Position numbers and translations under genes: made by a program
Origin: a virus
Strand: one strand, 5' to 3'
IMG/VR virus record: IMGVR_UViG_3300045738_002445
Location: 1 to 30,753 of that record
Length of the DNA: 30,753 nucleotides
Notes under the pieces: model-generated
The model's database searches: none
What the model saw: the letters and a program-made list of their open reading frames with translations, nothing else
Told to the model about the DNA's origin: nothing
Shown: positions 11,464-30,753 of the stretch, in pieces
Position numbering within the stretch: position 1 is the first letter of the stretch
Layout of the letters: every line of letters begins with the position of its first letter

Positions 11464-11817
11464 TTAGTCCCGGTAGGTCACCGAGAAAGTCATGGAGACG
11501 CGCGGCAGATACCCCGCATCGTCATCATCGTTGTCGCGCGTCGCATCGAGGAACATCCCCAGAACCGGCCCGCCCACATAGCCTTCGAGAACAGCCCGGA
11601 CGCCGCGGGCAAGCGTTTCCGCCTCGGCCGAAGTCGCCCCGTAGCAATCCACTTGCACCCGGCCCCGCATCAACCCTTTGCCGCTCAGAGACATGTTCCT
11701 GATGCCGGATGACTGAAACAAGGAGACGCGCTGCGCGCCGACCTCTTGGCCGAACACTCCCCATTTTACAGGGGCGGTAAGAGCACCAGAGAGAAGGGCT
11801 TGAAGGTGGTATTTCAT
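11464..11817 (-). CDS. Tail terminator / tail completion protein (DUF3168-like)
   Basis: A 117-residue protein beginning MKYHLQALLSGALTAPVKWG, with RGRVQVDCYGATSAEAETLA in the middle: the pattern of DUF3168 tail proteins, which cap the head-proximal end of the tail tube and join it to the connector. A DNDDDD acidic stretch lies near residue 97. Its ATG has AAGGA close upstream and begins 1 bp past the stop of the gp10-like gene. A longer upstream open frame exists but is out of keeping with the family length. Order within the module (gp10-like, DUF3168, tube) supports the call. Confidence 0.85.
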   Translation of the reverse strand: MKYHLQALLSGALTAPVKWGVFGQEVGAQRVSLFQSSGIRNMSLSGKGLMRGRVQVDCYGATSAEAETLARGVRAVLEGYVGGPVLGMFLDATRDNDDDDAGYLPRVSMTFSVTYRD

Positions 11818-26262: not shown

Positions 26263-26373
26263 ATGAAATGGACCACCGAAACAGTACCGGGCTTTGGCTG
26301 CACCTACCGCGTAGAGCGACTGACCCTATTCGGGCTCACTCTGTATGTGCGCTGGACCAAATCCCCCCAATAA
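26263..26373 (+). CDS. Possible very small protein (36 aa)
   Basis: A 36-codon frame with ATG, GAGG 8 bases upstream and a TAA at 26371-26373. The peptide (KWTTETVPGFGCTYRVERLT then GLTLYVRWTK) looks like a short beta hairpin. It lies in the only gap between the membrane protein gene and the ParB gene, so expression is plausible; function unknown. Confidence 0.4.
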   Translation: MKWTTETVPGFGCTYRVERLTLFGLTLYVRWTKSPQ

Positions 26374-26384
26374 TCGGAGCCTCT

Positions 26385-28232
26385 ATGACCGACCAATCCC
26401 CCATGTCGACCACCCGCACCGTGCCGCTTGATGACCTCTCGCTGCATGCCTTCAATCCGCGTCAAGTTCACGACCCCGAAGACATCGCTGCGCTCGCGAA
26501 ATCGCTGTCCATCAACGGCCTGATGCAGAACCTCAACGCGCTGGACGAGGACGGGAAGCTGGGCATTGTCGCTGGCGGCCGGCGACTTAGGGCACTGGAA
26601 CACCTGCGCGCTCAGGGCAGCGATTTTGCCGACAGCGCAGACATCGACTTCGATGCGATCCCGGTGAACGTTACCACCGACCACGCACTGGCACGCAGTT
26701 GGGCAGGGTCAGAGGGTGCCACGCAGCGCCCGCTGCATCCGGCAGACGAAATCCGCGCCTATGCCGCCATGGCCGATCACGGCAGCGATGCCGATCAGAT
26801 CGCAGCGGCTTTCGGCCAAACCCGGGCGCACGTTCAGCGCCGCCTGAAGTTGGCTGGCTTGTCGGCCTCCACGCTCGATGCCTTACGATCCGGAAACATC
26901 ACTCTCGACATCGCTCAGGTGCTCACCGTGACCGGCGGCGCAGAGCGTGAGGCACAGGCTTTGAAGCTGGCGACAGAGCATCGCTATTCCGCTGACCGGC
27001 TGCGTCATCAGTTGATGGAAGGCAATGTGCCCTCATCGGATCGCCGCGTGCAGTTTATCGGTCTGGACCTCTACCGGGCTGAAGGGGGTACGCTCGACGA
27101 GGACCTGTTCAGCGATCAATCCCGGCTGCACAACGCGGAACTGATCCATCAGCTGTTCGAAACAAAGTTGATCAAGGCTGCCGAGGATTTTCAGGCAAGC
27201 GAGGGTTTTGCCCGGGCTGTCCCTGTCTTTGAATCGTGGGTTGGCTACCAGCATACCGAAGGCATGACGCGGATTTACCGCCAGGCCATCGACCTGACCG
27301 AGGCTGACGCCACCCGACATGCAGAGCTTTGCGAACTCGGCGAAACGCAAAGCTTCACCGACGCCGAGAAGGCAGAGTTTGACGCGCTCGAACAAAGAAT
27401 GCTCGGCGACTACAAAGACGAAGAGCGGGAGGCTGCGACCGTTTTCGTACTGGTAGATCGCGATGGAAAGCTGGAGATCAGCTCCGCCTACCTGCCTGCC
27501 CAACAGCGCCCCGGCTTAAGCCCCGACACTGAGGGTGATGAGGTCGAGAAGATCGCCCCGAAGGCGCCAATCACCCAAGCCGGGATCGAAGACCTGCGCC
27601 GCATCGAACGGCTGGCACTACAGACGCGGATGATCACCCAGCCAGAACTGGCCCTCGATCTGTTGGCATTCCAGCTTTGGGCCGAGATGCCGAGTTTCTC
27701 TGGCCCCTTTAACATCCGTGCCGAAGAGCAACTGAGCCTGCCTGAAGTCGCCGATAGCATCACGGCCGACAAGCGTGTGACAGGCGAAGGCGACGACCCT
27801 GTCACATTATCTCTGGAAGACTTCGACGCGGCCTTCGATGCGTTCATCGCGAAGGGCAAGAAGCATCGCAATCAGGTGCTGACCACCCTGCTCGCCCGTA
27901 CCATGAATGCACCCTTTGCCAGCGCCGCCAACCGCACTCTGATGCAACGGCTAGACGTTACCCCGCGGAGCATCTGGACACCGACAGCAGAAAGCCTGTT
28001 TAACGCCTGCCGCTCCGAGGCGCTTGATCGCATCTGGCGTGAACTAGTGGTGACCGACGAGCGCGAGGATCAGATGGAACGCTTCGCCAAGCTGAAGGTC
28101 GGCGAGAAACGCAAGGAACTCGAAAAGCTATTCAACGACGCCAGCACGCAGGAAGCCTTGGGTCTGAGCCGCTCCGAGGTTGCCGCGATCGACAGCTGGA
28201 TACCCGAAACCATGAAGGGAGAGGCAGCGTGA
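26385..28232 (+). CDS. ParB-domain protein, large phage/plasmid type
   Basis: A 615-residue protein with a ParB N-terminal domain at about residues 11-100: VPLDDLSLHAFNPRQVHD, LAKSLSINGLMQNLNAL and AGGRRLRALEHL (the GERR box as GGRR). A KorB/ParB-like helix-turn-helix region follows (115-175: LHPADEIRAYAAMADHG, QIAAAFGQTRAHVQRRLK). The remaining ~440 residues are specific to large ParB-like proteins of alphaproteobacterial plasmids and phages. ATG has GGAG 5 bases upstream. There is no ParA gene nearby, so classical partition is unlikely. DNA binding with CTP-dependent or nuclease-like activity, or transcriptional control, are possible roles. It is the largest gene of the coupled early cluster. 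Confidence 0.82.
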   Translation: MTDQSPMSTTRTVPLDDLSLHAFNPRQVHDPEDIAALAKSLSINGLMQNLNALDEDGKLGIVAGGRRLRALEHLRAQGSDFADSADIDFDAIPVNVTTDHALARSWAGSEGATQRPLHPADEIRAYAAMADHGSDADQIAAAFGQTRAHVQRRLKLAGLSASTLDALRSGNITLDIAQVLTVTGGAEREAQALKLATEHRYSADRLRHQLMEGNVPSSDRRVQFIGLDLYRAEGGTLDEDLFSDQSRLHNAELIHQLFETKLIKAAEDFQASEGFARAVPVFESWVGYQHTEGMTRIYRQAIDLTEADATRHAELCELGETQSFTDAEKAEFDALEQRMLGDYKDEEREAATVFVLVDRDGKLEISSAYLPAQQRPGLSPDTEGDEVEKIAPKAPITQAGIEDLRRIERLALQTRMITQPELALDLLAFQLWAEMPSFSGPFNIRAEEQLSLPEVADSITADKRVTGEGDDPVTLSLEDFDAAFDAFIAKGKKHRNQVLTTLLARTMNAPFASAANRTLMQRLDVTPRSIWTPTAESLFNACRSEALDRIWRELVVTDEREDQMERFAKLKVGEKRKELEKLFNDASTQEALGLSRSEVAAIDSWIPETMKGEAA

Positions 28233-29082: not shown

Positions 29083-30753
29083 ATGATCAAACCCACCGGC
29101 ACAGCTATGCCCCGCGCCTGGCTCTATGCACGCTACTCTACCAACAAGCAGACCCAGAAGTCCCTCGATGACCAAATTTCAGAATGTCAGCGGTTCGCCG
29201 ATCGGCACGGCTGGCACATCGAACGCATCCTGACCGACGCGGAGCTCACGGGGTATAGCGATCACCGGCCCGGTTATCAGGAACTACTGCGCGGAATCGA
29301 AGGCGGGATGGTCGAGGTCGTGGTGGCCGAGAACATCGAGCGCCTGACCCGCGACGGTGAGCACAGCGCTCAGCTAGAGAAGCTCTGCGCCTTTCATGAC
29401 GTCAAGATTATGACGATCATTGATGGCGAGGCTAACGCGCTGAACATGGGGCTGAAGTCGCTGATGAGTGGCGCCTTGTTGAAATCCATCGCCCTACAGG
29501 CCCACCGCGGTCTTGCGGGCAACGTGGCCGCAGGGAAAAGCGCTGGCGGCCGCTCTTACGGCTATGTCATCCCCAGAGACGAACGAGGCGACAAGATCAA
29601 GGGTGCGCTGGTCATCGATGAGGGCGAGGCGCAAATCGTCCGCCGCATCCTGACAGAGTTTGCAGAGGGGATATCGCCCAAGAAGATCGTCGACCAACTG
29701 AACCAGGACGGAATCCCAAGCCCGAGCGGAAGAGCTTGGCGCCAGAACACCGTCTTCGGCAACCGCAAGCGCGGCACCGGCATTCTGAACAATGAGCTCT
29801 ATATCGGCGTCAGGGTCTGGGATCGCCTTGAGTACCGTCGACACCCCCAAACCCAAAAGCGCGTTTCCCGCCTGCGGCCTGAGGAAGAATGGGTTCGCGT
29901 CGAGGTTCCGGACCTGAGGATCGTCGACGATGAACTCTGGGCACGAGTGAAGGCGCGCCAAGACAGCTTCCAGGTCAAACCACGACGGGGCTCCAATAGC
30001 GGCGGCGTCGGCCCCCGCCCCAAGTTTCTTCTGTCGGGCTTCCTGCGCTGCGCCAAATGCGGTGGGCCGCTAACGATCGCTGGCACCGTGCACAAACGCT
30101 ACTACTGCAAAACGGCCAAAGAACAGGGGCCCAGCCAATGCACCGGCATGACCGGGCTTTTGAAGGACGAGGCGGAACAGGCAGTCTTGGGCGGCGTGAA
30201 ACGCGCGCTGCTCGGTTCGGATGCGTTCAAGCGTTTCCGTGACGAGTATGCGAGGGCGCTCGCTGATGCGACACAGTCGCTTCAGGCCGACCGCGCTTCG
30301 GTCACCCGACAGCTCCGCGCGGTAGAGACTGAAATCCGTAATGGAACCGACGCGATCCTTGCGGGCGTGAACAGCCCCGCCCTCATTGAAGCCCTATCGA
30401 AGGCGGAAGCGCGGAAACTCAAATTGCAGGCCCAACAGCGGCAGATCGAAGATGCGCGGCCGATGCTGCCAACAGACCTAGAAGAGGTCTACGCAGCGCA
30501 TGTCAGAAAGCTGGAAACGATCCTCGCAGAACCCGAATTGGTCATCCATGCGCGCGATATTCTGCGGGTCCTAGTCGAAACCATCAGTGTCGAGGAAGTG
30601 GAAGAAGGCAGGCACCTTCTGGGCATCGAGGGAGATTTGACAAAGTTTCCAATGACATATGCAAAAGCCGCCCCGAAGGGCGGCTTTGCGAACAAAAGTT
30701 CGATAGGCTTGGTTGCGGGAGTAGGATTTGAACCTACGACCTTCAGGTTATGA
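29083..30753 (+). CDS. Large serine recombinase (phage integrase)
   Basis: A 556-residue site-specific recombinase. The resolvase catalytic domain (residues ~10-150) has the nucleophile Ser19 in YARYST, then LDDQ, and ENIERLTRD with catalytic arginines 87 and 90. The recombinase domain follows (GRSYGYVIP, 157-165, and beyond), then a zinc ribbon with Cys323, Cys326, Cys342 and Cys353, and a long coiled coil (about 370-470) used for synapsis control. ATG has GAGG upstream. The last ~20 codons are a terminator hairpin and a translated antisense tRNA segment: the ending VGFEPTTFRL is a well-known artefact of reading across a tRNA, not a protein domain. The native C-terminus in the unintegrated phage would differ after that point. 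Confidence 0.93.
   Translation: MIKPTGTAMPRAWLYARYSTNKQTQKSLDDQISECQRFADRHGWHIERILTDAELTGYSDHRPGYQELLRGIEGGMVEVVVAENIERLTRDGEHSAQLEKLCAFHDVKIMTIIDGEANALNMGLKSLMSGALLKSIALQAHRGLAGNVAAGKSAGGRSYGYVIPRDERGDKIKGALVIDEGEAQIVRRILTEFAEGISPKKIVDQLNQDGIPSPSGRAWRQNTVFGNRKRGTGILNNELYIGVRVWDRLEYRRHPQTQKRVSRLRPEEEWVRVEVPDLRIVDDELWARVKARQDSFQVKPRRGSNSGGVGPRPKFLLSGFLRCAKCGGPLTIAGTVHKRYYCKTAKEQGPSQCTGMTGLLKDEAEQAVLGGVKRALLGSDAFKRFRDEYARALADATQSLQADRASVTRQLRAVETEIRNGTDAILAGVNSPALIEALSKAEARKLKLQAQQRQIEDARPMLPTDLEEVYAAHVRKLETILAEPELVIHARDILRVLVETISVEEVEEGRHLLGIEGDLTKFPMTYAKAAPKGGFANKSSIGLVAGVGFEPTTFRL
30664..30687 (-). terminator. UUCG-loop terminator downstream of the tRNA
   Basis: A 10-bp inverted repeat with AAAGCCGCCC and GGGCGGCTTT arms. 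Read on the minus strand the loop is TTCG closed by C-G, a very stable tetraloop, and the stem runs into TTTTGC. It lies 22 bases after the tRNA 3' end and so fits as the terminator of that gene. A second hairpin, CGAAC-AAAA-GTTCG (30689-30702), sits between. Both are inside the recombinase reading frame. Confidence 0.75.
30710..30753 (-). tRNA. tRNA-Met (CAT), probably initiator fMet, 3' part only
   Basis: Read on the minus strand the window edge begins in the anticodon loop (TCATAA, anticodon CAT), then CCTGA (3' side of the anticodon stem), variable loop AGGTC, T-arm GTAGG-TTCAAAT-CCTAC, acceptor TCCCGCA, discriminator A and an encoded CCA. The acceptor implies a 5' end of TGCGGGA or, with the usual initiator 1-72 mismatch, CGCGGGA; the latter with this T-arm is typical of alphaproteobacterial initiator tRNA. 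The 5' ~33 bases lie outside the window. Confidence 0.88.
30710..30753. other. Likely attachment site (attR side, in tRNA 3' end)
   Basis: The recombinase gene abuts and overlaps the 3' half of a tRNA gene, the usual arrangement when a phage att core restores the tRNA 3' end. I see no second copy inside the window, so the opposite boundary must lie to the left of base 1. The exact core cannot be defined from one end. Confidence 0.5.

Follow-up and report, generated by a model that had tools for sequence, protein, structure and literature searches.

The locus studied here raises the question of what happens to the C-terminus of an integrase when its gene ends inside the tRNA gene into which the element has integrated, i.e., whether excision gives the protein a different end, and with what effect. 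The window (the whole stretch of DNA analysed, 30,753 bases) is an IMG/VR virus record that appears cut at gene ends. It finishes with a gene coding for a protein of 556 amino acids (29083–30753, plus strand), and the last base of the record is the last base of its stop codon, TGA (30751–30753). The protein is a large serine recombinase by domain architecture and catalytic serine. Pfam found the Resolvase (PF00239, the N-terminal catalytic domain, E 7.5e-19), Recombinase (PF07508) and Zn_ribbon_recom (PF13408) domains, the catalytic S19 in YARYS is invariant, the other invariant residues of the catalytic domain are present, and the predicted model has the coiled coil as long helices (379–457). 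Close upstream there is a ParB-like protein of 654 amino acids (26268–28232; ParB_N and HTH_ParB), and the provirus bears portal and terminase genes.

The integrase frame crosses a GC hairpin in the linker (30661–30689, just downstream of where the 3′ end of the tRNA lies) and then 44 nt of antisense tRNA-fMet (30710–30753, minus strand), the part that reaches from CCA to U33 in the anticodon loop, and ends on a TGA complementary to U33-C34-A35. The sequence-only reading had already placed the stop opposite the TCA of the anticodon loop and the frame across the 3′ part of the tRNA, and was right in both, only the length of the overlap (42 nt in that reading) having to be corrected. It had also let the frame run through the tRNA terminator. 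The hairpin is terminator-like and is indeed inside the frame, but a terminator scan of the homologous stretch of the relative L018 did not score it because the T run is weak. ARAGORN found no tRNA in the window since the record ends in the middle of it; L018, which is 98% identical, continues into a complete tRNA-Met(CAT) (11601–11677, minus strand) with the geometry of tRNA-fMet. In the Sphingobium plasmid pBSY17_1 (L156 compared with L151) there is a second copy of tRNA-fMet with a 3′ flank like the integrase linker, including a hairpin, and a 94-codon remnant similar to the integrase; the linker and terminator may be able to spread between tRNA copies.

Judged by comparison of the relatives, the overlap is a clade-wide design, a family trait. 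A tRNA could be recognised at 48 integrated members and is overlapped by the integrase gene in all of them; it is Met/fMet (CAT) in 45 cases, Gly(TCC) in two and Ser(GCT) in one. Plasmid homologues from Paracoccus, Loktanella, Sphingobium, Haematobacter and others (36–40% identity) use the same frame and end in VAGxGFEPxTFRL. Tail-bearing members had served as seeds for the families searched, and the survey of relatives did not include whole-genome chromosomes. When the tail was deleted from the query, members located at other tRNAs were also recovered. In addition, viral contigs were scanned at DNA level for the antisense fMet half in an unbiased way, irrespective of any recombinase, and a serine recombinase turned out to lie just upstream at 15 of the loci. 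The entry of the integrase frame into the tRNA is not due to chance, because 14 of these 15 keep the same frame; the fifteenth, L066, enters the tRNA as well, using a different frame. At the rest of the antisense fMet-half loci the ORFs in the tail frame were mostly short. Most members keep the frame although the length of the linker differs. L407, L402, L478 and L386 read the tRNA in another frame, like L066, the few other-frame members stopping in the T loop, and in two plasmid elements (L491 and L500) the integrase stops 10–18 nt short of the tRNA.

The position of the crossover can be inferred from members that retain VAG or VAE and then diverge. Their DNA contains a near-palindrome, GGTTGCGGG-NN-CxCGCAACC, and the dyad symmetry about the inferred dinucleotide averages 13.5/25 in attP forms, compared with 6.3 in attR forms and 6.6 at random positions. 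As far as these alignments go, the near-palindrome is attP, located inside the 3′ end of the integrase gene. The match between this attP and the tRNA is confined to about a dozen bases at the junction of acceptor and T stems. The short att core, the 2-bp central dinucleotide common to both ends and the symmetric arms have been met in relatives only. The published 17-bp att repeat on either side of phiPam-6, a functional, inducible phage with a serine recombinase that sits in tRNA-Met, reads CCCTCCTCCGCTACCAT (PMC3925955); it is the reverse complement of ATGGTAGCGGAGGAGGG, the core found in our analysis, and agrees with this position.

By homology to the relatives, and with the phiPam-6 repeat as a further guide, the window would have the left half of the core (GGTTGCGGG, the element-supplied 3′ end of the tRNA) at 30711–30719 (plus strand), and the crossover at the central dinucleotide AG (30720–30721), at the acceptor-stem/T-stem junction (nt 66/65). 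The host would supply the end of the integrated protein, V547–L556 (VGFEPTTFRL), together with the stop (30721–30753, plus strand). The crossover is therefore inferred to lie within the tRNA, the condition that the sequence-only reading had set, and because it falls at nt 65/66 about ten residues would change, not the stop alone. We sought a second att copy in the window record, which is trimmed at gene ends, and found none. When viral contigs were scanned for exact copies of the left arm, to find the attP of the window's lineage, only known relatives came up, the attL pattern had only chance-level matches in 19 viral records (trimmed proviruses), and no attL was found in the Loktanella, Sphingobium and P. 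ferrooxidans plasmids. The second att copy and the attP of the window itself are unseen because of the trimming.

Several members have two tandem att cores (VAG...VAG) in the 3′ end of the integrase gene (L026, 4590–4692; L086, 1880–2019; L165; L358; L493), and in Haematobacter these are 51 bp apart and mirrored at the other end of the element. VapC toxin genes adjoin the integrase at tRNA-fMet-type cores (L493, 3340–3750; L023, 1708–2157). One of them is annotated as tRNA(fMet)-specific endonuclease VapC, and such an element may bring along a toxin directed at its own target tRNA. Toxin-antitoxin-like pairs of DUF1778 and GNAT acetyltransferase genes were found just upstream of the integrase in L025 (1686–2499) and L026 (1662–2475).

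Direct comparison of both states of the gene was possible in three clean cases, in which attP was rebuilt from the attL and attR found at both ends of one element (tails are given up to the stop codon). In Methylosinus pMSC49a (ca. 51.7 kb, GA at both ends) the integrated ...VAGTGFEPVTFRL becomes ...VAGTRNTRFLLLVERVVPKLAA in the rebuilt attP; over a longer stretch ...ESLVAGTGFEPVTFRL becomes ...ESLVAGTRNTRFLLLVERVVPKLAA, and the tail alone goes from GFEPVTFRL to TRNTRFLLLVERVVPKLAA. In element A of Paracoccus aminovorans plasmid p_IV (ca. 101 kb, GG at both ends) AGFEPATFRL is replaced by ARNHRDQHSLEVFV, and in contig L167 (GG) AGFEPATFGL by ARNRRYLQLWNAAS. In the attB rebuilt for pMSC49a and p_IV the sequence goes on into the body of the tRNA, which keeps a 3′ flank of its own. 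Two more elements, from Haematobacter and Novosphingobium (W06 and W07), were dropped as clean pairs on account of their doubled att units and, in W07, because the dinucleotides at its two ends do not match. The same pattern appears between closely related integrases that are alike up to the core and different after it (L210/L215, 80%; L148/L172, 74%; L205/L206, 68%), and the 33 attP-form members have diverged tails that all start at one same point. For the most part these come from metagenome contigs whose circularity is not proven, and tandem junctions may be among them. In Rhizobium phage RR1-A the virion genome has such an attP in the 3′ end of the integrase gene, with the tail VVAGERFEQSPQIILGRFVA.

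The sequence-only reading had predicted that C-terminus and stop would change on excision, and had named an unchanged C-terminus after reconstruction of attP among the results that would refute it. Carried out in relatives, the reconstruction gave different C-termini in all three cases and none of the refuting results was obtained. The overlap is shown by sequence in the window and in relatives, and the location of att and the tail swap by the sequences of relatives; for the window, whose own attP has not been seen, these last two are only inferred. As a separate observation, the stretch of P. aminovorans p_IV between 11 and 440 kb (L021/W01, NZ_CP109864.1) holds at least eight serine recombinases of the family and several att-core sites in 430 kb, giving the impression that elements have accreted repeatedly at a single tRNA-fMet. 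The picture in P. versutus pBEN (W12) is similar.

The tails encoded by attP look like ssrA degrons. Proteins ending in Ala-Ala or Leu-Val-Ala carry classic ClpXP degrons, and 12 of the 33 attP-form tails (29 clusters at 60% identity) end in Ala-Ala and 20 in hydrophobic-Ala, with ends such as SLAA, ELAA, VIAA, SVAA, RLVA and FVA. Hydrophobic-Ala ends are absent from the integrated forms (0/125). The other frames of the same attP DNA gave 0/129 Ala-Ala and 3/129 hydrophobic-Ala (p 8e-10 and 4e-14), and among neighbouring ORFs the values were 7.7% and 10.7% (p 1e-5 and 2e-9, with 29 tails). The Ala codons vary and the stop is found anywhere from 43 to 127 nt from the core, indicating that the signal is at the level of protein. 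In the structure model of the window integrase, residues 535–556 are predicted to be disordered (pLDDT <50; overall pTM 0.43), as would be expected for an accessible tag. A degron-like end is missing in 13 of the 33 attP forms, and two of the three clean rebuilt tails (EVFV and NAAS) do not end in Ala-Ala. Degron function is an inference, without degradation data. Since ssrA-like ends are present in attP tails and absent from integrated forms, the exchange of C-termini is most likely a stability switch that works by loss of the ssrA-like end. The idea of a built-in switch of recombinase form holds in relatives as far as the swap is concerned; its likely effect is on stability and not an altered enzyme.

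The best explanation, to which we would give a probability of roughly 0.6, is that attP lies inside the 3′ end of the integrase gene and that the tail swap acts as a stability switch; there are no half-life or excision data for any member. In the circular or virion genome the integrase would be read across the dyad-symmetric attP into an element-encoded tail, typically ssrA-like with hydrophobic-Ala or Ala-Ala at its end. A Met/fMet tRNA gene would be the partner with which the protein recombines attP. The exchange would fall at the acceptor/T-stem junction; the 3′ end of the tRNA including CCA would come from the element and the remainder from the host. After integration the frame would enter the antisense tRNA, gain GFEPxTFRL and stop on the complement of U33-C34-A35. 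The phage-form integrase would be short-lived by ClpXP-type proteolysis, limiting lysogenisation, and the prophage form stable, both the degradation and its role being inferred. In this way stable integrase would be at hand in the lysogen to excise the element together with an RDF; once excised, the element would again encode the degron, and a new integration would be disfavoured.

It remains possible, if doubtful, that the swap does take place but is a neutral side effect of fitting attP into the 3′ part of the gene, the tail being functionless and its residues whatever the DNA happens to encode. The tails are variable, and disordered in the model, 13 of 33 do not resemble degrons, L491 and L500 manage without the overlap, and L066, L407, L402, L478 and L386 read the tRNA in another frame. 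However, a neutral tail would not account for the strong enrichment of Ala-Ala and hydrophobic-Ala in the integrase frame alone, with differing Ala codons and stops 43–127 nt from the core, nor for the retention of one frame by most members over linkers of differing length. A change in catalysis or directionality (e.g., in the response to the RDF or in synapsis) instead of protein stability seems improbable. It is true that each form belongs to just one of the two states, that these states call for opposite reactions, and that the coiled coil and C-terminal region of large serine recombinases are known to take part in directionality, but the exchanged residues come after a low-confidence stretch beyond the last predicted helix, and what attP tails have in common is a C-terminal signature and not a fold. 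Finally, a crossover in the anticodon loop, with the element carrying the whole 3′ half of the tRNA and the tail and stop unchanged on excision, could be argued from 17 loci where the whole tail and stop are followed by non-tRNA DNA, but it has very little left in its favour since a tyrosine integrase lies within 3 kb of at least 10 of them, and the rebuilt attP sites and phiPam-6 set the core at the 3′ end of the tRNA; on these alignments the anticodon loop is not where the crossover lies. These 17 loci were rejected as attP forms, most of them being explained, given those tyrosine integrases, by a second element inserted beside the first. The integrases were identified by a motif search, with PF00589 confirmed in the four tested, including L342 that the motif had missed; beside the 161-kb junction of P. 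aminovorans the strict motif was not found, and a second element there is unproved.

The preferred reading, attP inside the integrase gene with a tail swap affecting stability, can be compared with known systems. The canonical large serine integrases (phiC31, Bxb1, TP901-1) have the same domain architecture, a 2-bp central dinucleotide and symmetric att arms; to our knowledge their attP lies outside the integrase reading frame and their attB is usually in protein genes. IntM of the Mesorhizobium tripartite ICE, which also involves a met-tRNA, was considered and no tie to serine recombinases was found. The recombinase of RR1-A (JF974314.1) belongs to the same family (34% identity over 77%) and has an attP-like core in the 3′ end of its gene in the virion genome and a tail ending in RFVA, but its core is of Met type, GGTAGCGGGAG, not fMet. 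phiPam-6, or vB_PamS_Pami6, of Paracoccus aminophilus is inducible, with a serine recombinase in tRNA-Met(CAT) and a 17-bp att repeat equal to the core found here, but the available portions of the reports make no mention of the integrase running through the att site or of a tail change (PMC3925955, PMC6536676). In mycobacteriophage BPs and relatives, integration removes an ssrA-like -AA tag from the repressor (PMC9262239; PMC9934374). This integration-dependent immunity shares with our family an attP inside a coding gene and attB in a tRNA; its phage-form tag lost on integration may have a counterpart here, judged by a sequence signature in relatives alone. In contrast, attP lies in the repressor gene in BPs and in the serine integrase gene here, and the BPs integrase, a tyrosine recombinase, does not have its own tag exchanged, whereas here the host tRNA supplies the new tail to the integrase. 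Thus, among the features of the BPs type, attB in a tRNA gene is met and attP in a repressor gene and a tyrosine integrase are not. Literature searches on such tails and on ssrA-tagged serine integrases brought up no account of this arrangement.

On balance we think it probable, if only modestly so, that a whole clade of serine integrases from phages and mobile elements is self-regulated through a recombination-coupled, self-resetting stability switch, integration removing an ssrA-like degron and excision returning it; the replacement tail and its stop would come from the antisense strand of a Met tRNA gene of the host. It is understood only in part how elements with serine integrases are kept from re-integrating once excised, and how lysogeny is decided in the absence of a lambda-like circuit. 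The integrase would carry its own state sensor, its C-terminus reporting whether attP or attR is the coding source. GFEPTTFRL-type C-termini of recombinases, which might otherwise pass for annotation errors, would have a mechanistic cause. If the stability switch is true, it would be a simple form of genetic memory, with a bearing on the prophages and mobile elements of Alphaproteobacteria and on the engineering of serine-integrase tools.
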